Below are positions 1 to 10,904 of a stretch of DNA of 22,195 bases, piece after piece. This DNA comes from Candidatus Aminicenantota bacterium (GTDB lineage Bacteria > Acidobacteriota > Aminicenantia > Aminicenantales > JAFGAV01). Numbering within the stretch: position 1 is the stretch's first letter; every line of letters begins with the position of its first letter. The stretch covers positions 1 through 22,195 of the forward strand of contig VGJG01000001.1 of the NCBI GenBank assembly GCA_016867615.1, read 5' to 3'. Below the pieces are notes generated by a model, which ran no database searches, was not told the DNA's origin, and saw only the letters and a program-made list of their open reading frames with translations. The translations under genes were made by a program, and so were the position numbers.

Positions 1-2517
1 TTCGACTTCCTCGGGATAGGCGGGCATCTCTTTTCTCGTGCGGCGGTAGAGGATCGTGACTTTCTTGACCTTCTTGTCTCTCAGCGCCACGCGCGCCGCA
101 TCGACGGCCGAGTTCCCGCCGCCGATGACCGCCACCCGCCCGCCGAGCTCCGGCGGCCGGCCGAGGTGGACGTCCTTGAGGTACTCCAGGGACTGCAGGA
201 CGCCCTCCGCCTCCTCGCCCGGAACGCCGATCTCGATCGGCTTGTGGGCGCCCGTGGCCAGGAAGACGGCCTTGTAGCCCTGGCAGAAGAGGTCGTCCAG
301 GGTGAAGTCCTTGCCCAGGGCGGTGTTCGTCCGGACGGTCACTCCCGACTTGATGATGTGGTCGATGTCGTCCTGGAGGATGTCCTTGGGCAGCCGATGG
401 CTGGGAATGGTCACGGCCAGCATGCCGCCCGGCACGGGCAGGGCTTCGAAGATCCGGACGGGGAAGCCCTTGCCGGCCAGCATGTAGCCGGCGGCCAGGC
501 CCGCCGGACCGGCGCCGATGATGGCCACTTTCTGGGTCTTGGTCACGGGGAATTTGACCGGGTCGTCCAGCCCTTTTTCTTTGGCCCAGTCCATAACGAA
601 CCGCTTCAGGGCGCGGATGGCGATCGGGTCGCCGATCTCGCCCGCCTTGCAGGCGCTCTCGCAGGTCCGGCTGCAGACGCGGCCGCAGACCGAGGGCAGG
701 GGGTTGTCCCGGCGGATGACCCGGTAGGCCTCCTCGAACTTCTTGGCGGCCACCAGGGCGATGTAGGTCGAGGCCTCCTGGCTTATGGGACAGGTGTAGT
801 GGCAGGGCGAGGAGATGATCTCCTTGCAGACCATGGCCGGACACTTCTTCTCCAGGACGTGCTTCTCGTACTCGGAGCGGAAGTACTTCAGGGTGGAGAG
901 CACCGGGTTGGCGGCCGTCTGCCCCAGGCCGCACAGGGAAGCGTCCTTGACGGCCGCGGCCAGCTCTTCCAGGACGGAGAGATCGGCCAGCGCGGCGGTG
1001 CCGTCGGTGACGCCCTTGACGATCTCCCACATACGCTGCGTGCCCTCGCGGCAAGAGACGCACTTGCCGCAGGACTCGTCGCGCAGGAAGTTCAGGAAGT
1101 ACTTGGCCACGTCGACCATGCACGTCTTGTCGTCCATGACGATCATGCCGCCCGAGCCCATGATCGACCCGGCCTGGGCCAGGCTCTGGTAGTCGATGGG
1201 CAGGTCGAGCATCTCCCTGGGCAGGCAGCCGCCCGAGGGACCGCCCGTCTGGACGGCCTTGAAAGCCCGGTCGCCGGGGATCCCGCCCCCGATGTCGTAG
1301 ATGATCTCCCGGAGGGAGATGCCCATGGGGACTTCGACCAGCCCGGTGTTGTTGATCTTGCCCACCAGGGAGAAGATCTTGGTGCCCTTGCTGTTGTCCG
1401 TGCCGGTCTCGGCGAACCAGTCGGCGCTTTTTTCGACGATCAGGGCCACGTTGCCCCAGGTCTCGACGTTGTTGATGCAGGTCGGCTTGCCCCACAGCCC
1501 GCGGGTCGAGGGGAAGGGGGGGCGCTGGCGGGGCTCTCCGACTTTGCCCTCGATCGAGGCGATGAGGGCCGTCTCCTCCCCGCAGACGAACGCGCCCGAG
1601 CCCTTGGCCACGCGGATGTCGAAGTCGAACCCCGTGCCCAGGATGTTCTCCCCCAGAATCCCGAGGCGGTAGAGGTTCTCCAGGGCCAGGGTGATGTGCT
1701 TCACCGCCAGGGGATACTCGTCGCGGACATAGATCGTCCCCTCCCGGGCCCCGATGGCGTAGCCGCCGATCATCATGCCCTCCAGGACGCGATGGGGGTT
1801 GCCCTCCATCAGGCTGCGGTCCATGTAGGCGCCCGGGTCGCCCTCGTCGGCGTTGCAGATGACGTATTTCGTCTCGCCGGCCGACTTGCGGGCCGACTCC
1901 CATTTCAAGCCGGTGGGAAAGCCGGCGCCGCCTCGGCCGCGAAGCCCGGACTTCTTGACCTCGGCGATGACCTCTTCGGGGGTCATCCGTTTCAGGGCTT
2001 TGAGCAGGGAGCCGTATCCTCCGACCGAGAAATAATCGCCGATGTTCTCGGGGTCGATCAGGGCGTTGTCGCCCAGGACGATGCGTTTCTGCTTCCGGTA
2101 GAAGCCGATTCCCGACTCCTTGGTTTCGGCCTTGCCCGTGCCCGGGTCGACGTACAGCAGGTGGGGCAGGACCTTCTTTTTGAGGACGGTCTGGGTGACG
2201 ATGTTGCGGCCGTCCCTGGGGGCGACCTTCTGGTAGAAGATGTTGTCGGGGAAGATGATGATGTTCGGCTCGGCCTCGCAGAACCCGTGGCAGCCGGTGA
2301 CCTTGACCTGGACCTTGTTCTCGAGCTTGAGGTCCTTCAGGGCGCGCCTCAGGGAACGGATGACTTTCACCGACCCGCGGGCCTGGCCGCACGTCCCGGA
2401 GGAGACCGTGAGGACGGTCTTCTTCTCCGACTTGCGGACACGGACGTGTTCGTCGATCAGGGACTGGAGGTCTCGGGCCGTCATGAGCTTATCGGGGGTC
2501 TTCATGGCGCGACTCAT
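1..2517 (-). CDS. NuoF/HydB-type NADH-binding flavoprotein fused to a GltD/NfnB-like FAD oxidoreductase (3' end off window)
   Basis: Probable electron-bifurcating or transhydrogenase subunit, cytoplasmic. 839 codons are visible and the C-terminus lies beyond position 1. Domains in order: a thioredoxin-like 2Fe-2S domain (about 20-110, with GTCG and later GCHGFC); a NuoF core with the FMN loop GRGGAGFPTG (about 190) and the NADEGDPGAYMDRS stretch typical of bifurcating HydB/HndC-type subunits; the 4Fe-4S motif SCGKCVSC (about 480) with a further Cys in SLCGLG; then from about 555 a GltD-like part with CxxxC, CGRVC and CxxxC clusters, a first Rossmann motif GAGPAG (about 670) and a second, GGGNSA (about 800). 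The start is the ATG at 2517, which overlaps the nuoE stop as ATGA, implying translational coupling; an ATG at 2505 is the alternative. The first half of the 2Fe-2S motif has one Cys instead of two. It resembles a fused version of the StnB and StnC subunits of Sporomusa-type Nfn, as I recall that complex. Partner and substrate are inferred. Confidence 0.88.
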   Translation of the reverse strand, partial: MSRAMKTPDKLMTARDLQSLIDEHVRVRKSEKKTVLTVSSGTCGQARGSVKVIRSLRRALKDLKLENKVQVKVTGCHGFCEAEPNIIIFPDNIFYQKVAPRDGRNIVTQTVLKKKVLPHLLYVDPGTGKAETKESGIGFYRKQKRIVLGDNALIDPENIGDYFSVGGYGSLLKALKRMTPEEVIAEVKKSGLRGRGGAGFPTGLKWESARKSAGETKYVICNADEGDPGAYMDRSLMEGNPHRVLEGMMIGGYAIGAREGTIYVRDEYPLAVKHITLALENLYRLGILGENILGTGFDFDIRVAKGSGAFVCGEETALIASIEGKVGEPRQRPPFPSTRGLWGKPTCINNVETWGNVALIVEKSADWFAETGTDNSKGTKIFSLVGKINNTGLVEVPMGISLREIIYDIGGGIPGDRAFKAVQTGGPSGGCLPREMLDLPIDYQSLAQAGSIMGSGGMIVMDDKTCMVDVAKYFLNFLRDESCGKCVSCREGTQRMWEIVKGVTDGTAALADLSVLEELAAAVKDASLCGLGQTAANPVLSTLKYFRSEYEKHVLEKKCPAMVCKEIISSPCHYTCPISQEASTYIALVAAKKFEEAYRVIRRDNPLPSVCGRVCSRTCESACKAGEIGDPIAIRALKRFVMDWAKEKGLDDPVKFPVTKTQKVAIIGAGPAGLAAGYMLAGKGFPVRIFEALPVPGGMLAVTIPSHRLPKDILQDDIDHIIKSGVTVRTNTALGKDFTLDDLFCQGYKAVFLATGAHKPIEIGVPGEEAEGVLQSLEYLKDVHLGRPPELGGRVAVIGGGNSAVDAARVALRDKKVKKVTILYRRTRKEMPAYPEEVE

Positions 2518-2975
2518 TTCCTGTACTTCTTCAGGACGGCTCCGACTTTGCGGACCGTGGTGTGGGCGTGGTAGTCGTTGTCCACGACGACCACCGGGCC
2601 GATGGCGCAGCAGCCGAGGCAGGCCACGGTCTCCAGGGTGAAGGACTTGTCCTCGGTCGTCTGTCCCGCCTTGACCTTAAGCCGCGCCTCGAACTCGTCC
2701 AGGATGCGCGGCGCGCCCCGGACGTGGCAGGCCGTGCCCTGGCAGACGGTGCAGGTGTGCTTGCCGCGGGGCTTGAGACTGAAAGCCCGGTAAAAAGTGG
2801 CCACGCCGACGATGTCCACCAGGGGGATGTCCAGCGTCTCGGAGACGGCGCGCAGGCAATCCTGGGGAAGGTAGCGGAATTCGGCCTGGATGTCCTGCAG
2901 GATGGCCATCAGGTTGTTCTTCCGTCCCCGGTGCTTGGCGATGATGGCCTGGACCTTGTCTTTTTCAGCAGCCAC
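2514..2975 (-). CDS. nuoE: NuoE/HydC-like 2Fe-2S thioredoxin-fold subunit
   Basis: A 153-residue small iron-sulfur subunit of the NuoE (24 kDa) family, usual length 150-170. It partners NuoF-type flavoproteins and carries one 2Fe-2S cluster. A helical N-terminal part (to about 65, ending VATFYRAF as in the family) precedes the thioredoxin-like fold. The four ligands are visible as TVCQGTAC (Cys x4 Cys) and ACLGCCAIGP. The start is GTG at 2975, chosen because GGGAGG sits 7 bases upstream; the annotated Met is therefore a GTG codon. Its stop overlaps the ATG of the downstream NuoF-GltD fusion by 4 bases, so the two are almost certainly made stoichiometrically. No proton-pumping complex I subunits are next to it, which favours a soluble bifurcating enzyme over respiratory complex I. 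Confidence 0.93.
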   Translation of the reverse strand: MAAEKDKVQAIIAKHRGRKNNLMAILQDIQAEFRYLPQDCLRAVSETLDIPLVDIVGVATFYRAFSLKPRGKHTCTVCQGTACHVRGAPRILDEFEARLKVKAGQTTEDKSFTLETVACLGCCAIGPVVVVDNDYHAHTTVRKVGAVLKKYRK

Positions 2976-3065: not shown

Positions 3066-3095
3066 TATATAACAGAGAAAAATCGGGCCTGTCAA
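3066..3095 (-). promoter_or_regulatory. Sigma-70-type promoter for nuoE-nuoF/gltD
   Basis: On the minus strand a perfect -35 TTGACA (3090-3095) is followed after 18 bases by TATATA (3066-3071). The predicted start of transcription is near 3059, giving a leader of about 84 bases. The TGA inside the -35 hexamer is the stop codon of the upstream PEP-synthase-like gene (3092-3094), so the promoter is embedded in that gene's end. The leader contains an 8-bp palindrome TGTCGACA (3038-3045). Confidence 0.6.
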
Positions 3096-6000
3096 GAGTC
3101 CGCGGGGAAGCCGGCGCTCGGCTTGCGCGCCGGAGCCCGGACGCCGAGAGGCAGTTCGAACAAAGATTCCTCCGCCAGCCCCAGGGCGGCCGCCGCGGAC
3201 TTCTTGTCCGTCGCTTCGCTGCCGACAATTCTGTAGACCAGCAGGCGCTCGAGGCGGATGCCCGTCCGGAAGTGATTCGTCTCGGTGAGCGCGGCGTTCC
3301 AGCCCTGGAGCCAGGTTTCGAGCTCCTGGCGCTGCTCGGCGCCGCCCTCGAAATGGACGAGGAGATTGAGCTCGCTGTCCGGGCCGTCGAGCCCGCTGAG
3401 CGTGTTGCCCAGGAGATAGAACGCCTTCACCCCCAGCCGCGGGGCGTCGCACAGCTGCGCGATCCGCTCGGCCATCCGCCGCCTCCAGCGGGAGTGCTCG
3501 TTCGTGTCCCGGGAGCCGCCCAGGCCCGGCCCGCCGACGGCCCTCGGGGATGAACCGGGCTCGCCGAAATAGGCCACCGCCTTTTCCTGGTCGGCGTTCA
3601 TCAGCACTTGGAGGAGTTTCCCGTTCGACGCCCGGGAGACGTCGATGAGCCGGACGGCGTCCGCCAGCCGTTTGTTCTCGGGCAGGAACTGGGCGATGAG
3701 GTTGGGCGCCGACTGCAGGAAAGCGTCGTTGAACCGGACCTTCGGGTCGTCGGGATAGAGGGGCAGGTAGCGGATGCCCGATTCGACCAGGTCCTGGAAG
3801 AAATGTGTCCCGAAGGAGACATCGGGCACGTAATTGCCCTTCTTGCGGGCGACTTCGATGAGCATGGCCGCGTTGGAGATGTCCGAGTAGGTGACCCGCA
3901 CGCCGAGCTTGATATCGCCCCGGCTGCCCCACCGGCCGGGACCCATGAGGATGAAGCGGCGGCGGGGGAGGAGCTTGTTGAGCTTGCCCACGGCCTGGCC
4001 CACGGCGGCCAGGTCTTCGAGCGAGGCGATCTCCCCGTAGCGGTCCGGGTCGACGTAGACGATGTGGCTGATGTCGGACACGCGGCCGTTGGACACGAAC
4101 CTGTCGGCGGTGAACAGGACGGATTCGGCGGGCAAGCCGGCCGGGATGTCCATGGCCGATTCCTCGGCCGACTGGCTCTGGGGACGGCACTGAAGGAGGT
4201 AGAAATCCGCCCCGTCGTAAGCGAACTCGACATCCACGGGAACCCCCAGGGCCGACTCCAGCGTCTTGAGGATGGCCACCAGCCGGCGCATGAACTCTCC
4301 GCCGCCGATCAGGCCGTCGAAGCTGACGATGACGTCCTCCCTCTCGAAATCGGTGACGAGCCCCAGGGGAGGGTAGAGGATGCCCTCCCGGGAGATAGAC
4401 ACGACCTTATCCAGGGCGGGATAGTCGTGCCCGACCTCTCTCATGAGCTCGCGGAAATCCTTGGTGACGAAGCTGTTCGCCTCCAGGTCGATGACGTCGA
4501 TCTTTTTCGGGGAATAGCGCGCCACTTCGTCCTGGGAGACGTTGACCCTGAGGTTCGGCTGAGCCGGCGCCACGAGGACCGGATAGTCGTCGCTCAGCCG
4601 GTCCACCGCCCGCGTGCCCAGGCCGGGGACGAGGCGCAGCAGCCCGTCCTCGCGGCGGATGCGGGCGGACCAGCGGAATTCGTTCCGGGAGAAGGCCACG
4701 CCGGCCAGGGCGGGGAAGTAGTACTTGCCCACGCGGCGGCCGACGACCTCCTGGATCATGATGCCCATCTCCTCGTGGAAGTCGAGCAGGCCGCGCTCGG
4801 AGCGGTACTGGATGGCGTCGGGGTTGAAGGTCGAGGCGTAGACCTCGGCCACGGCGTCGAGCAGGGCGTTCAGGCGCTTTTCCTTGTCCCCCTGGTTGGC
4901 CAGGAAGAGGCTCTTGTATTTGCCGGCGAAGGCCGTGCCCATCCGGTCCTCGAGCAGGCTCGAGCTCCGGACGATGATCGGCCTCTCCCCGAAGTCGTCG
5001 AGCGCCACCGACAGTCCCTTGACGATCTCGGGGAGGAAGGCGCAGTTCTTGAACACCTGGACGAGATGGGGATACTCGAGCCGGACTTCGTCGAGGTCCT
5101 TGTATTTCTGCTCGATGACGTCCTCCAGGTTGTTGTACTGGAGGAAATGGATGACGCCGTCCGAGGTCAGGTACCAGGTCTTGGGCTTCTTGACCGTGCC
5201 CAAGGCCTTGACCCGGCGGGCGGCCTGCCGCAGCACCCGGCTGGCCAGGAACAGGCCGGCGCTCTTGCCGCCCAGCTTGCCCCGGCTGTCGGGCGGGAAG
5301 ATGATCCGGCCGACTATGTCGAAAAAATCCTCGAGGTCGACGTACTTCTTGAGGATGTTGATGTATTCCAGCTGCTCCGTGAAAAAGCGGCGGATGAGCG
5401 CCACCCGGACGCTGTCGGCCTTGGCCCGGGAGAGCTGAACCCCCTGGGGCAGGAGGAGCTTGAGTCGCCGTATCGAGTCCAGAACCTCGTTGAGAGTCGA
5501 ATAGACGTTCTCCAGGACCTTGACCGCGGAGCTGGAGCGGTCCTCGTTGATCCACTTCTGGATGCGGCCCAGGATCTCCTCGTCCGTCAGGTTGACCGCG
5601 GCGATCTTGAACGTCTCTTCGCTCAGGTTGAGGAGCTTCTCCAGGGATTCCTTTTCTTGGGGCAAGTTGGACTCGCCGAACAGCTCCCCCCGCTCCTGGC
5701 TCTCGCCGTGCCGGAGGAGAAGGGAGCGCGCTTCGCTGACTCCCCGCCAGCCGAGGTAATTCATCATCTTGCGCGAGATGCGCAGGAAAAGGTTCTGGTC
5801 CGTGTTGCTCAGGAGGTCGAGGGCGATCCGCCAGCTCGGCTTGGTCTCGGCCGCCTCCCGCCGCTCTCCGTTCATCTCCTCGAACATGAACCGCAGCCGT
5901 TGGTGGAGGATGAAATGCCCCAGCCGTTCGGCGACGGTCTGGATGAGCTTGGCCTCGCCCTGGAGGAAGGGGCCGCAGTCGGCCTCGGGAGTGGACTCGC

Positions 6001-6310
6001 TGTACGAGACGTGGAGGCGGCCGACGACGGATTCCTGGACGCGGATGTCGGCCGTCTGGACGTAGGGGGTTTCCAGGTAATCGGGGGACTCGTAGACATC
6101 CGAGCCGTGAACGATCCGCGCCTGGCAGACTTTGGGGAACTGCCAGCCGGGGGGGATGGCGGCGATGACCCGGCGGAAGACCTCCTCCAGGGAGAGGGCG
6201 TAGTTGCTGAGGATCTCCTCGACGGTGTACAGGCAGCTCAGCTCCTTGGAGCGCTCGTGCAGGGTGCAGAACAGGGCGCTCGCCGTCTTGGACGGGTCTT
6301 GCTGGTTCAT
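3092..6310 (-). CDS. GAF-like sensor / PEP-synthase ATP-grasp domain / degenerate nucleotidyltransferase protein
   Basis: 1072 residues. Function unknown; I do not recognise a characterised homologue. Residues about 15-150 (SKELSCLYTVEEIL, IPPGW, DIRV, GPFLQGEAKLI, AERLG) match the GAF-like input domain seen in sensor histidine kinases. From GGKSAGL (347-353) to LLQCRPQS (about 712) is a PPDK_N/PEP-synthase ATP-grasp domain, with RSSSLLEDRMGTAFAGK near 446-465. The phosphohistidine swivel domain (TSHxAI-type motif) and the PEP/pyruvate TIM barrel of PpsA/PPDK are both absent. A third block (GPGRWGSRGD, 790-799; GTHFFQDLVES) is conserved-looking but unnamed to me. The tail (about 955-1040) resembles an MNT-type nucleotidyltransferase, but its catalytic pair reads E980/N982. 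The start has GGAGGAG upstream and lies 46 bases after gdhA, so they probably share an operon. It is probably not a metabolic PEP synthase; a regulatory phosphotransfer or ligand-sensing role is inference. Confidence 0.85.
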   Translation of the reverse strand: MNQQDPSKTASALFCTLHERSKELSCLYTVEEILSNYALSLEEVFRRVIAAIPPGWQFPKVCQARIVHGSDVYESPDYLETPYVQTADIRVQESVVGRLHVSYSESTPEADCGPFLQGEAKLIQTVAERLGHFILHQRLRFMFEEMNGERREAAETKPSWRIALDLLSNTDQNLFLRISRKMMNYLGWRGVSEARSLLLRHGESQERGELFGESNLPQEKESLEKLLNLSEETFKIAAVNLTDEEILGRIQKWINEDRSSSAVKVLENVYSTLNEVLDSIRRLKLLLPQGVQLSRAKADSVRVALIRRFFTEQLEYINILKKYVDLEDFFDIVGRIIFPPDSRGKLGGKSAGLFLASRVLRQAARRVKALGTVKKPKTWYLTSDGVIHFLQYNNLEDVIEQKYKDLDEVRLEYPHLVQVFKNCAFLPEIVKGLSVALDDFGERPIIVRSSSLLEDRMGTAFAGKYKSLFLANQGDKEKRLNALLDAVAEVYASTFNPDAIQYRSERGLLDFHEEMGIMIQEVVGRRVGKYYFPALAGVAFSRNEFRWSARIRREDGLLRLVPGLGTRAVDRLSDDYPVLVAPAQPNLRVNVSQDEVARYSPKKIDVIDLEANSFVTKDFRELMREVGHDYPALDKVVSISREGILYPPLGLVTDFEREDVIVSFDGLIGGGEFMRRLVAILKTLESALGVPVDVEFAYDGADFYLLQCRPQSQSAEESAMDIPAGLPAESVLFTADRFVSNGRVSDISHIVYVDPDRYGEIASLEDLAAVGQAVGKLNKLLPRRRFILMGPGRWGSRGDIKLGVRVTYSDISNAAMLIEVARKKGNYVPDVSFGTHFFQDLVESGIRYLPLYPDDPKVRFNDAFLQSAPNLIAQFLPENKRLADAVRLIDVSRASNGKLLQVLMNADQEKAVAYFGEPGSSPRAVGGPGLGGSRDTNEHSRWRRRMAERIAQLCDAPRLGVKAFYLLGNTLSGLDGPDSELNLLVHFEGGAEQRQELETWLQGWNAALTETNHFRTGIRLERLLVYRIVGSEATDKKSAAAALGLAEESLFELPLGVRAPARKPSAGFPADS

Positions 6311-6356: not shown

Positions 6357-7643
<1,287 letters not shown>

Positions 7644-8220: not shown

Positions 8221-9660
8221 TTATAAAAAAGGAAGGTATTTGCGGAGCTCGTAGTCGCTGACCTGCTTGTCGTACTCGCCGCTGACGTTGCGGTTGTAGT
8301 CCTGGATCTCCTGCCGCTTATTGGCCAGGAACTTCTCGAAGAGGGGGCCGCCGAGAGTCTCGCGGACGAGGGAGCTCTTCTCGGTGAGCCTCACGGCCTC
8401 CTCCAGGTTGCGGGGCAGGGTCTTGATCTCGAGATGCTTCTGGCGGGCGTTGCTCATGTGGTAGATGTTCTCCTCCACGGAGTCGGGAAAGGGCGCCTTG
8501 TCCCGCAGGCCCCGTAGGCCGGCGGCCAGCATGATCGCCAGGGCCAGGTAGATGTTGCAGGCCGGGTCGGGCGAACGGAGCTCGAGACGGGTGGCGTGTT
8601 CCTTGCCCGGCTGGTAGCGGGGCACGCGGATGTAGGCCGAGCGGTTGCGCTGGCCCCAGGCGATGTAGACGGGCGCCTCGTAGCCCTCGATCAGCCTCTT
8701 GTAGGAATTGACCCACTGGCTGAGGATCGAAGAGATCTCCCGGGCATGGGTCATCAGCCCGGCGGCGTAGTGTCGGGCGGCGGCCGAGAGGTGGTAAGGG
8801 TCCCGGCCGTCGAAGAACAGGTTCCGGCCGCCGCGCCACAGGGACTGGTGGACGTGCATGCCGCTGCCGTTCTGGCCGTTGATGGGCTTGGGCATGAAGG
8901 TGGCGTGCAGGCCGTGCATGCGGGCCACGCGCTTGACCATGTAGCGGAAGAGCATCCCCGTGTCGGCCATCTCCAGCGCGTCGCCGAAGCGGAGGTCGAT
9001 TTCGTGCTGGCCGTGCGCCACCTCATGGTGGTCGTACTCCGAGACGATGCCCATGCGCTTGAGGAGAAGCTGGATCTCCTTGCGGATCTCGCCGTGAAGT
9101 CCGGAGAAGAAGTAGCCGCCTTCGTCGAGCGGCCGGGGGTCGGTGTTGGAGGGGAAGAGGAAGAATTCGAGTTCCGGACCGACCTTGAAGCCGTCGACGC
9201 CCGCCGCGGTCCGGGCCCGGCTCAACATCTCCTTGAGAACCCGCCGCGTATCGGCCTCATAGGGCCGGCCGTCCGGAGTCAGGATGTCCCCGAACATGAC
9301 CGCCTCCCGCCAGCGGATGTCGGGCTGGAAGCCGACGTACTCCCAGGGCAGGACGCGGAAGGTGCGGGCCTCCGGCCGGATGACGAGGTCGCTCTCCTCG
9401 ATCCGGACGAACCCCTCCACGGACGAGCCGTCGAACCCCTTTCCCTCTTCGAAGGCCCGAGCCAGTTCCTCCCTGGGAAAGGTGAAGTCCATGGGACGGC
9501 CGAGGATGTCCGGGAACATAATCCGGATGAATTCGATGTTGTTGGCCGGGTCGCGGACATAGTTCAGCACGTCCTCTTTCCGGGCGAAACCGAACGGCCG
9601 GACGGGACCTCCCGCGCGGCGTGTAACGGGCGCCGCTTCTCCCGAACTTCGTTTGGTCAT
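8221..9660 (-). CDS. glnA: Glutamine synthetase, type I (non-adenylylated type)
   Basis: ATP-dependent condensation of glutamate and ammonium to glutamine, in the cytoplasm as a dodecamer. 479 residues. Visible signatures: the N-terminal beta-grasp with FDGSSVEGFVRIEESD; the catalytic-domain metal and substrate motifs GPELEFFLF and HHEVAHGQHEIDLRF; the ATP-site signature KPINGQNGSGMHVHQS; and the R-rich RNRSAYIRVPRY and RLELRSPDPACN stretches. The tail region (NIYHMSNARQKHLEIKTLP) lacks the Tyr adenylylation motif of GSI-beta, so covalent control by GlnE is unlikely. I chose the ATG at 9660: AGGAGG lies 8 bases upstream, and the promoter predicts transcription starting near 9688, too close to the alternative ATG at 9684. 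It is divergent from an Lrp-type regulator, which probably controls it. Confidence 0.94.
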   Translation of the reverse strand: MTKRSSGEAAPVTRRAGGPVRPFGFARKEDVLNYVRDPANNIEFIRIMFPDILGRPMDFTFPREELARAFEEGKGFDGSSVEGFVRIEESDLVIRPEARTFRVLPWEYVGFQPDIRWREAVMFGDILTPDGRPYEADTRRVLKEMLSRARTAAGVDGFKVGPELEFFLFPSNTDPRPLDEGGYFFSGLHGEIRKEIQLLLKRMGIVSEYDHHEVAHGQHEIDLRFGDALEMADTGMLFRYMVKRVARMHGLHATFMPKPINGQNGSGMHVHQSLWRGGRNLFFDGRDPYHLSAAARHYAAGLMTHAREISSILSQWVNSYKRLIEGYEAPVYIAWGQRNRSAYIRVPRYQPGKEHATRLELRSPDPACNIYLALAIMLAAGLRGLRDKAPFPDSVEENIYHMSNARQKHLEIKTLPRNLEEAVRLTEKSSLVRETLGGPLFEKFLANKRQEIQDYNRNVSGEYDKQVSDYELRKYLPFL

Positions 9661-9694
9661 TGAAATGCCCTCCTGAAATTTCATATGTAATGAA

Positions 9695-9722
9695 TTTAGA
9701 ATAAATATTATGTATTTGTCAA
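9695..9722 (-). promoter_or_regulatory. glnA promoter
   Basis: On the minus strand a perfect -35 TTGACA (9717-9722), 16-base spacer and TCTAAA (9695-9700). The start would be near 9688, giving a leader of about 28 bases that includes AGGAGG. The -35 lies inside the left arm of the TTGTCAAT/ATTGACAA inverted repeat. Confidence 0.5.
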
Positions 9723-9746
9723 TTATTTTATTAAATATATTGACAA
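9716..9746. promoter_or_regulatory. Inverted-repeat operator candidate between glnA and the Lrp-type gene
   Basis: Arms TTGTCAAT (9716-9723) and ATTGACAA (9739-9746) are perfect inverted repeats whose centres are 23 bp apart, about two helical turns, with a 15-base AT-only spacer. The left arm contains the glnA -35 and the right arm a TTGACA reading toward the regulator gene. This geometry suits an Lrp/AsnC dimer repressing or autoregulating both promoters. Confidence 0.5.
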
Positions 9747-9774
9747 TCGTATTATATGAAAGCTATGGTATAAT
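9740..9774 (+). promoter_or_regulatory. Promoter region of the Lrp-type gene
   Basis: Two readings fit. One is an extended -10 TGGTATAAT (9766-9774), whose perfect TATAAT has TTGACA 23 bases upstream, too far to be its -35. The other is TTGACA (9740-9745) with TATGGT (9764-9769) at 18 bases. The first would start near 9781, the second slightly earlier. Confidence 0.5.
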
Positions 9775-9803
9775 CGCCTGACTTTCCGGAAGGAGCGAGT
9801 CCC

Positions 9804-10325
9804 ATGAAAAAGACCGCAGCGGCGCGACGAACGGCGGGAGGAAAGACGGCTTCATCGGCGGCCGGTCGGACGGCCGGGCCGGTCATCGACGACCTGGGGA
9901 AGAAGATACTCCGGGTCCTGAACGAGAACGCCCGGAGGAGCTTCCGCGAGGTCGCCAAAAGGATCGGGGTCTCCGCTCCGGTCGTGATCCATAAGGTCAA
10001 ACAGCTCGAGTCGTCGGGCGCCCTGCGGGGCTATATCCCCCTCGTGGACCCCGCCGCCCTCGGGCTGGACCTGACGGCCGTCATCGCCCTGCGCATCTCC
10101 AAGGGGCAGCTTCTGGAGACGCAGGAGCGGATCGCCAAGGACCCCCGGGTGAGGGCGGTGTACGACATCACCGGCGAGTGGGATTCGCTCGTCGTCGGTC
10201 TTTTTCGCGGACGCGACGACCTCAACGCCTTCATCAAGAACCTGCTCGCCCAGCCGAACGTCGACCGGAGCGTGACCCACATCGTCTTGAACACCGTCAA
10301 GGAGGAGTCCCGCGTTCCGGTTTGA
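9804..10325 (+). CDS. Lrp/AsnC-family transcriptional regulator
   Basis: 173 residues. DNA-binding regulator that typically responds to an amino acid through its RAM domain and assembles as dimers to octamers. The winged-helix HTH (about 28-80) shows IDDLGKKILRVLNENARRSFREVAKRIGVSAPVV, split by the family's ID and ILxxL pattern. The RAM/ACT-like domain (about 88-165) contains PRVRAVYDITGEWDSLVVG, with the family's G-D/W-D motif. The first 26 residues are a basic Ala/Lys/Arg-rich tail not usual in Lrp proteins; no internal start explains it away, and the ATG at 9804 has GGAAGGAG 8 bases upstream. Its position opposite glnA, over a shared inverted repeat, suggests control of glutamine synthetase and itself. 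The ligand is not predictable from sequence. Confidence 0.9.
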   Translation: MKKTAAARRTAGGKTASSAAGRTAGPVIDDLGKKILRVLNENARRSFREVAKRIGVSAPVVIHKVKQLESSGALRGYIPLVDPAALGLDLTAVIALRISKGQLLETQERIAKDPRVRAVYDITGEWDSLVVGLFRGRDDLNAFIKNLLAQPNVDRSVTHIVLNTVKEESRVPV

Positions 10326-10387
10326 GGCGGACGCGGGGCCGCGCCGTTCCCCCCATTTCCGCCGCGGGCCGCTCTCCTTTTCCGATG

Positions 10388-10415
10388 TTGACAGCGGTTC
10401 GGAATATGACATAAT
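10388..10415 (+). promoter_or_regulatory. speH promoter
   Basis: Perfect -35 TTGACA (10388-10393), 16-base spacer and CATAAT (10410-10415, five of six). Transcription would start near 10422, and AGGAGG of the speH ribosome site is at 10431-10436. Confidence 0.6.
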
Positions 10416-10442
10416 GACCCCTTCCCGGGCAGGAGGTGCGGC

Positions 10443-10904
10443 ATGGCGGAGAACATTTTCAAGACCATCGGCCATCATTACATCGTCGAGGCCTCGTCCT
10501 GCGACCCCGAGATCATAGGCAGCGTGGAGAAGGTCCAGCAGATCCTGGTCAAAGCCGCCGAGGCGGCCGGCGCCCAGGTGTGGGCCATTTCCTTCAGCCG
10601 GTTTCCGCCCAACGGAGTGAGCGGCGTCGTGGTCATCTCCGCCTCGCACATCTCCACCCACACCTGGCCCGAGAACGGCTACGCCGCCCTGGATATCTAC
10701 ACCTGCGGCGCCGACGTCGACCCCGAGAAGGCCGTTTTCTACGCCGTGGAAGCTTTCGGCGCCTCGACGTCGCACATCACCGAGATCACCCGCGGCATAG
10801 ACGAGGGGGACGCCGCCTATTACCACAGTTTCGTCACCTGGGAAGAGAACTTCCGCAAGACGAAGGAAGCCGAGAAGCGCAGAGAGCGCTGTAACGACTC
10901 CTGA
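10443..10904 (+). CDS. speH: S-adenosylmethionine decarboxylase proenzyme-like protein, class 1B
   Basis: Pyruvoyl-dependent enzyme family that normally makes decarboxylated AdoMet for spermidine synthesis; the chain self-cleaves to create the pyruvoyl group. 153 residues, longer than the usual 120-130 because of a charged tail (about 120-153). Conserved elements: GVSGVVVIS, SHISTHTWPE, GYAALDIYTCG and EITRGI near the end of the core. S68, H73 and C88 are spaced exactly like Ser63, His68 and Cys83 of the Thermotoga maritima enzyme. The residue before the cleavage serine is A67, where the family has Glu, so self-processing or substrate may differ; pyruvoyl arginine/ornithine decarboxylases derived from this family are an alternative. 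The ATG has AGGAGG 6 bases upstream and its own promoter. No spermidine synthase gene lies next to it. Confidence 0.85.
   Translation: MAENIFKTIGHHYIVEASSCDPEIIGSVEKVQQILVKAAEAAGAQVWAISFSRFPPNGVSGVVVISASHISTHTWPENGYAALDIYTCGADVDPEKAVFYAVEAFGASTSHITEITRGIDEGDAAYYHSFVTWEENFRKTKEAEKRRERCNDS

Follow-up and report, generated by a model that had tools for sequence, protein, structure and literature searches.

A GAF–ATP-grasp protein linked to glutamate dehydrogenase in Candidatus Aminicenantota, tentatively a histidine autokinase with a divergent swivel

The stretch of DNA analysed here (the window, 22,195 nucleotides) is the whole of contig VGJG01000001.1 from assembly GCA_016867615.1 of a Candidatus Aminicenantota bacterium, a genome that is 83% complete and consists of 542 contigs. 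It encodes a protein of 1072 amino acids, hereafter the long protein, in which a GAF sensor domain is joined by a helical linker to a PPDK_N ATP-grasp domain, a conserved domain called X and a nucleotidyltransferase-fold tail, and its gene follows the glutamate dehydrogenase (GDH) gene gdhA after 46 bp. Our tentative reading, with a probability of roughly 0.47, is that the long protein is a GAF-gated, PPDK-derived histidine autokinase dedicated to the control of GDH. This reading is carried by the domain make-up, the conserved ATP-site residues, the gene linkage and the co-occurrence of both genes, all of which are established. The reading frame is real and not a product of chance because of its thousands of homologues (6852 at E ≤ 0.001 among 8000 scored), and each of the 120 homologues listed covers 90-100% of the protein. 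Among the matches listed, the closest named homologues belong to Candidatus Aminicenantes, and many homologues carry the database name pyruvate, water dikinase or phosphoenolpyruvate (PEP)/pyruvate-binding protein. A GGAGGAG stretch precedes the ATG, and no promoter-like site was called between gdhA and the long gene.

The position directly behind gdhA had been pointed out in an earlier note on this DNA, and a neighbourhood survey bears it out far beyond the window. The neighbouring gene was checked in a subset of the homologues, namely 80 loci that are the best matches from public genomes and come from 20 named phyla (15 of the 80 are unplaced). Eight of them are cut by contig ends and 72 have enough upstream DNA, and a close gdhA (>55% identity) lies beside or near the long gene in 71 of these 72. 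It is on the same strand within 2.6 kb in 67 loci, at 5.0-6.7 kb in three and divergent in one; the distance is below 900 bp in 26 loci, while in 41 a gap of 0.9-2.6 kb usually holds a short gene that is described below. The sole exception, L051, has only more distant GDH genes. Just five gene families recur in at least six of the 80 loci: the long family, GDH, a phosphoesterase and two minor ones. The trees of the long protein and GdhA are congruent (Mantel r 0.44, a value reached in none of 999 permutations), which shared host phylogeny could also explain. About 50 columns form a signature of the linked GdhA subfamily, among them a WDQ insertion at 244-246 and Q366/N370/N372; this signature was considered as a mark of a modification site and dropped, as the unlinked GdhA of genome G025 shares several of the columns.

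Co-occurrence points the same way. Among 199 genomes drawn evenly from the phylum, 37 have both a long homologue (at least 45% identity) and a close GdhA (at least 66%), two have GdhA only, three the long protein only and 157 neither (Fisher 3e-34, uncorrected for ancestry). The long gene occupies 50 places in these genomes; in 27 of them a GdhA gene precedes it on the same strand at a distance of up to about 2 kb, and in five GdhA is arranged otherwise within 1.6 kb. In 59 relatives, both genes occur in 25, GdhA only in one and neither in 33, and genomes with only a distant GdhA (≤54%) are without the long protein. The linkage is specific to one GdhA subfamily, that with at least 65% identity to the GdhA of the window. 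A chance neighbourhood with gdhA is rejected on the 71 of 72 loci together with the co-occurrence in the 199 genomes. Several observations nevertheless weigh against a dedicated partnership. Both the co-occurrence and the linkage statistics ignore shared ancestry, and no partner was found for the close GdhA of G142 and G182 or of G058 among the relatives. Conversely, a close GdhA is missing from G061, G191 and G242, whose long protein reaches at least 45% identity, and from six further genomes with weaker long homologues (35-44%), and at 18 of the 50 places there is no close GdhA on the contig, although some of these lie near contig ends.

A second pairing suggests a GDH-directed function most strongly of all. 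A relative of 990 amino acids (e.g. L073:12212-15181) carries a receiver-like N-terminus (Response_reg just below the cut-off) in front of the ATP-grasp domain and X. It is found in 60 of the 199 genomes and a second kind of GDH, which shares about 31% identity with the window GdhA, in 75; both occur in 56 genomes, the relative only in four and the second GDH only in 19. The relative lies directly downstream of the second GDH in 42 of 61 places and on the same contig in five more, but not in the other 14. The pairing is not exclusive, given that the receiver-type relative follows the first kind of GdhA in G088, G101 and G126; in G092, G140 and G235 it stands beside the long gene. Hence two GDH subfamilies have ATP-grasp-X partners with differing sensors. 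Loci L161-L190 hold the receiver-type relative with the second GDH subfamily, and at L076 the genes for the second GDH, gdhA, the short, the long and the receiver-type protein form one 11-kb run.

The earlier note had described a GAF-like sensor on a PPDK_N ATP-grasp domain and had denied the protein the ordinary PpsA/PPDK reaction, and both statements hold. The N-terminal domain has the GAF fold (a PDB sequence search with the GAF alignment gave no credible match), and PPDK_N is the sole Pfam family above its cut-off in the protein, with 203.9 bits against a curated cut-off of 27. K349, R448, D693, E695, Q707 and R709 are invariant in an alignment of 101 long homologues, from which all counts of domain invariance and of the catalytic triad below are also taken; they correspond to what we take to be the ATP-site residues of PPDK_N (K, R, D/E-x-E, Q-x-R). 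GGK, D/E-x-E and Q-x-R line up with the PPDK of related genomes, whereas the Arg motif does not. No family match to a PEP/pyruvate-binding barrel was obtained from Pfam or NCBIfam, the roughly 140 residues after X being a nucleotidyltransferase-type domain and not a barrel, and neither the family scan nor the model revealed a substrate-binding domain like the PEP barrel or the RIF domain. The NCBIfam PEP synthase models score 54-59 bits against cut-offs of 598-883. Elsewhere in the window genome there is a PPDK-like frame of 932 amino acids, separate from the long gene, and also a swivel-bearing fragment. An ordinary PEP synthase or PPDK was rejected on these three grounds: the missing barrel, the scores below cut-off and the separate frame.

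The earlier note had found neither a phosphohistidine motif nor a PEP barrel in the protein. The motif and the barrel are indeed absent, yet the structure models align X with a swivel. The stretch of residues 715-950 is mostly this one conserved domain (about 728-925), which the models suggest is probably a divergent phosphohistidine swivel. His836 is invariant in the aligned long proteins, as is the equivalent H511 in 40 short paralogues, and the distance from the ATP-grasp Gln to this His is 129 residues in the long and 123 in the short protein, compared with 120 or 124 in PPDK. Two AlphaFold models, of the long protein and of a short paralogue, were compared with solved structures, and the swivel match was read from the aligned ranges. 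In both models, the alignments with chains of three swivel enzymes (PEP synthase, PPDK and rifampin phosphotransferase) extend through X and span 340-366 residues: 5hv3, 2ols and 1dik give 340-366 with the long model and 351-366 with the short one, and 2dik and 1ggo give 312-321 with the long model. The longest rows confined to ATP-grasp reach 289 residues (long, 5hv6_A) and 277 (short), so that the swivel enzymes exceed them by 23-77 and 69-89 residues, respectively. The swivel of 1dik is docked at the PEP site; the comparison output itself names no docked conformer.

Other results speak against X being a swivel. The PPDK conformers 5lu4, 5jvl, 1vbg, 2r82 and 1vbh end at the ATP-grasp domain, and range ends alone are weak evidence because rows of unrelated ATP-grasp enzymes (Ddl, carbamoyl-phosphate synthetase) also stray into X; in the models, the match of X to the swivel is present for some solved poses and missing for others. 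An hhalign comparison of X with swivels returned a probability of 0.1, as opposed to 98 for the PPDK/EI control, and the motif around His836 ranked at a median of 86.5 among about 171 positions against the PPDK/EI motifs, i.e. at chance level. PF00391, the swivel family of PEP-utilizers, has no match in the long protein and the GGxT[SC]HAA motif is absent; Pfam gave nothing credible on 36 pieces of X (best E 0.029), nor did a PDB sequence search with the X alignment. A terminal motif resembling VDG..G.GV occurs in 37 of 40 short and 4 of 30 receiver-type proteins, and a looser pattern fits 89 of the 101 long ones; none of the 40 short proteins conforms to the strict swivel pattern. These patterns were picked by eye after viewing the sequences and carry little weight. 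The structure models thus match X to the swivel of the three enzymes above, in disagreement with the sequence comparisons. The claim that a swivel-type domain is wholly absent is weakened by these models and is probably wrong.

The earlier note was right that there is no PEP domain, but it missed the C-terminal nucleotidyltransferase fold, as well as the short paralogue and the metallophosphoesterase of other phyla. Of 75 available C-terminal pieces, 32 were scanned, and 26 of these match PF01909 at E ≤ 0.01; the window protein itself has no Pfam nucleotidyltransferase match. Among the 101 aligned rows, 71 keep the D-D-D triad; where NTP_transf_2 has G-S...D-x-D...D, the window protein has G-N, E, N and V. 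The rows without D-D-D require five changes on a FastTree tree of the ATP-grasp-X part, and their clustering in the clade holding the window protein (26 of 30) leads us to think that the window lineage has probably lost a nucleotidyltransferase activity that most relatives kept. In four relatives of the order (L097, L098, L099 and L101) the long protein ends near 920-930, without this domain, and the long-gene copies of L104 and L105 are split between frames, either by decay or by assembly error.

The short gene is a second ATP-grasp-X gene and lies upstream of the long gene in 50 of 77 aligned loci; it was not seen in 24, and three cannot be judged. Both genes overlap in 35 of 42 measured pairs. 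Downstream DNA of at least 1 kb is available at 63 loci, and at 36 of these the long gene is followed by a PF00149 metallophosphoesterase, which is convergent in 35 of the 36 (e.g. L009:11198-12052). Among the 59 relatives it is present in the five with the short gene, and it was not found in the window genome at its 83% completeness. It accompanies 36 of 53 loci with the D-D-D triad but 0 of 10 without, a difference that comes from only four independent tree pairs and is not significant; neither is the coupling of short gene and phosphoesterase on independent pairs. Most loci outside the window clade add the short gene and an intact nucleotidyltransferase, often together with the metallophosphoesterase, whereas the window is without these.

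Autophosphorylation at His836, the ligand of the GAF domain, GDH as target and the sense of regulation are inferences that go beyond linkage and fold. The GAF domain would bind a small signal, perhaps a nitrogen or carbon metabolite as in PtsP, and this signal would gate the ATP-grasp domain, through which His836 of the divergent swivel may receive a phosphoryl group from ATP. As there is no PEP barrel that could pass the phosphate to pyruvate, X would act on GDH by its charged state or its position, through phosphotransfer or binding. In loci outside the window clade, the short subunit, the intact nucleotidyltransferase and often the metallophosphoesterase might form a second layer that plausibly adds and removes a nucleotide and is missing or decayed in the window lineage. 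Such a layer is thinkable because SelO AMPylates and inactivates mammalian GDH (PMC12375108). A bolder version, which we regard as doubtful, would see here a widespread and undescribed covalent control of two GDH subfamilies in about 20 phyla by PPDK-derived sensor kinases with a cryptic swivel His836, the full writer-eraser module (GAF-kinase/nucleotidyltransferase, short subunit and metallophosphoesterase as eraser) replacing control of the GlnE/PII type in bacteria that are without it.

The same data can be read in other ways. The ATP-grasp domain and X might phosphorylate a small molecule tied to GDH or to amino-acid breakdown, with GAF as an allosteric domain, and the gdhA link would then reflect a shared pathway and not GDH control. 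The nearest structural kin, rifampin phosphotransferase, PEP synthase and HpeI, do act on small molecules (PMC12167813), and NuoE- and NuoF/GltD-like redox genes follow the long gene in the same direction, though two promoter-like matches intervene. We still consider a metabolic dikinase unlikely, as no substrate domain like the PEP barrel or RIF was recognised, and sensor domains (GAF, or receiver-like in the relative) in pairings with two GDH subfamilies fit regulation better. Also improbable in our view is an ATP-grasp enzyme without any swivel, whose X would be a new fold acting directly, for instance by binding the acceptor in a ligase or protein kinase of which it is one half, and would match swivels by accident. 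In its favour are sequence comparisons that were negative throughout despite a working positive control, the lack of a credible Pfam or PDB sequence match, and the straying of unrelated ATP-grasp rows into X; against it stand the alignment of X with the swivels of three enzyme families in two models, beyond the ATP-grasp-only rows, and a Gln-to-His spacing close to PPDK.

It is also conceivable that the nucleotide-bound ATP-grasp domain is merely a switch and that the protein regulates GDH by contact, without catalysis. The decayed nucleotidyltransferase indicates that the window lineage tolerates the loss of one activity, but the invariance of K349, R448, E695, Q707 and R709 makes a non-catalytic regulator very unlikely. 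The least credible readings, with hardly any probability left to them, are an ordinary PEP synthase or PPDK, as the pyruvate, water dikinase label of many homologues would have it, and a chance neighbour of gdhA; the former is contradicted by the missing barrel and swivel families, the low NCBIfam scores and the separate PPDK-like frame, the latter by the recurrent linkage.

Several known systems lie close to the proposed GDH-directed autokinase. GlnE and GlnD are nucleotidyltransferases, with glutamine synthetase adenylylation as their context, and are akin by analogy in that a domain of this fold serves the control of a nitrogen-assimilation enzyme, although the architecture differs. PtsP/EI-Ntr takes its phosphate from PEP through the PEP barrel, while the long protein uses ATP-grasp and has no barrel. 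The GAF domain of PtsP binds glutamine and 2-oxoglutarate and thereby gates His phosphorylation (PMC13104625). VadK (Rv1127c) is described in a preprint as a PPDK-derived His autokinase that interacts with enzymes of the methylcitrate cycle and tunes the pathway, with the catalytic His422 confirmed by mutation and mass spectrometry (PMC12636432). On that description, the likeness lies in a truncated protein with a PPDK-derived ATP-grasp and a phospho-transfer His domain, and in metabolic enzymes as partners; the GAF domain, the divergent X, the nucleotidyltransferase tail and the GDH linkage set the window protein apart, and a recognisable PPDK His domain as in VadK-type dikinases is not found in it. 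Phenols are the substrates of the two-component dikinases HpeHI, CreHI and PpsAB, which retain the conserved His motif of the swivel (PMC12167813); the long protein is without that motif. Rifampin phosphotransferase and PEP synthase/PPDK differ likewise, as the long protein has no RIF or PEP domain and its X no swivel sequence motif. PPDK-derived regulatory kinases and GAF-gated His phosphorylation are already known in kind, whereas a GDH partner is present in none of the close systems compared. Among the titles and abstract openings listed in searches of open-licence PMC papers, none described a sensor-kinase/GDH pairing, an absence that proves little.

Table 1. Features of the long gene and its partner in the window
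Feature	Coordinates	Strand	Basis or remark
Sensor/ATP-grasp protein gene, 1072 aa	3092..6310	-	GAF, helical linker, PPDK_N, domain X, decayed nucleotidyltransferase
GAF sensor domain, residues 12-153	5852..6277	-	
Helical linker, residues 159-335	5306..5836	-	secondary structure of model; no Pfam match
PPDK_N ATP-grasp domain, residues 345-722	4145..5278	-	Pfam PF01326, E 5e-60
Domain X, residues 728-925, probable divergent phosphohistidine swivel	3536..4129	-	structure rows 5hv3, 2ols, 1dik
His836, candidate phospho-carrier	3803..3805	-	invariant residue
Nucleotidyltransferase-fold domain, residues 940-1055, with E980, N982 and V1025 in place of the catalytic triad	3146..3493	-	
gdhA, glutamate dehydrogenase, partner directly upstream	6357..7643	-	family matches, neighbourhood and co-occurrence data

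Downstream of the long gene, on the minus strand of window positions 1-2975, lie the NuoE-like gene and the NuoF/GltD-like fusion, which runs off the edge; presumably they resemble a Sporomusa-type electron-bifurcating transhydrogenase, which would suit NAD(P)H from GDH. NuoE- and NuoF-like genes likewise follow the long gene at L099. Upstream of gdhA, at positions 8221-10904, glnA is accompanied by an S-adenosylmethionine decarboxylase and a divergently oriented Lrp/AsnC regulator, so that the neighbourhood is one of nitrogen and amine genes. Rfam and tRNA scans of the window and a PHROGs search returned no match, and PADLOC only candidate families of nucleotidyltransferase- and phosphoesterase-like type.

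GDH stands where carbon and nitrogen metabolism meet. GlnE was found in none of the 40 genomes searched, the window genome included (the control was positive in 3 of 14 named genomes), and PII-like proteins scored above the cut-off in 12 of the 40, a patchy distribution. If the long protein is indeed a GDH-directed autokinase, many genes labelled pyruvate, water dikinase or PEP/pyruvate-binding would be regulators instead of gluconeogenic enzymes, and a false PEP synthase step may stand in the metabolic models of many uncultured phyla. It would further show how a metabolic dikinase has been turned into a signalling device, and would supply a defined set of two to four genes for reconstitution in E. 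coli.

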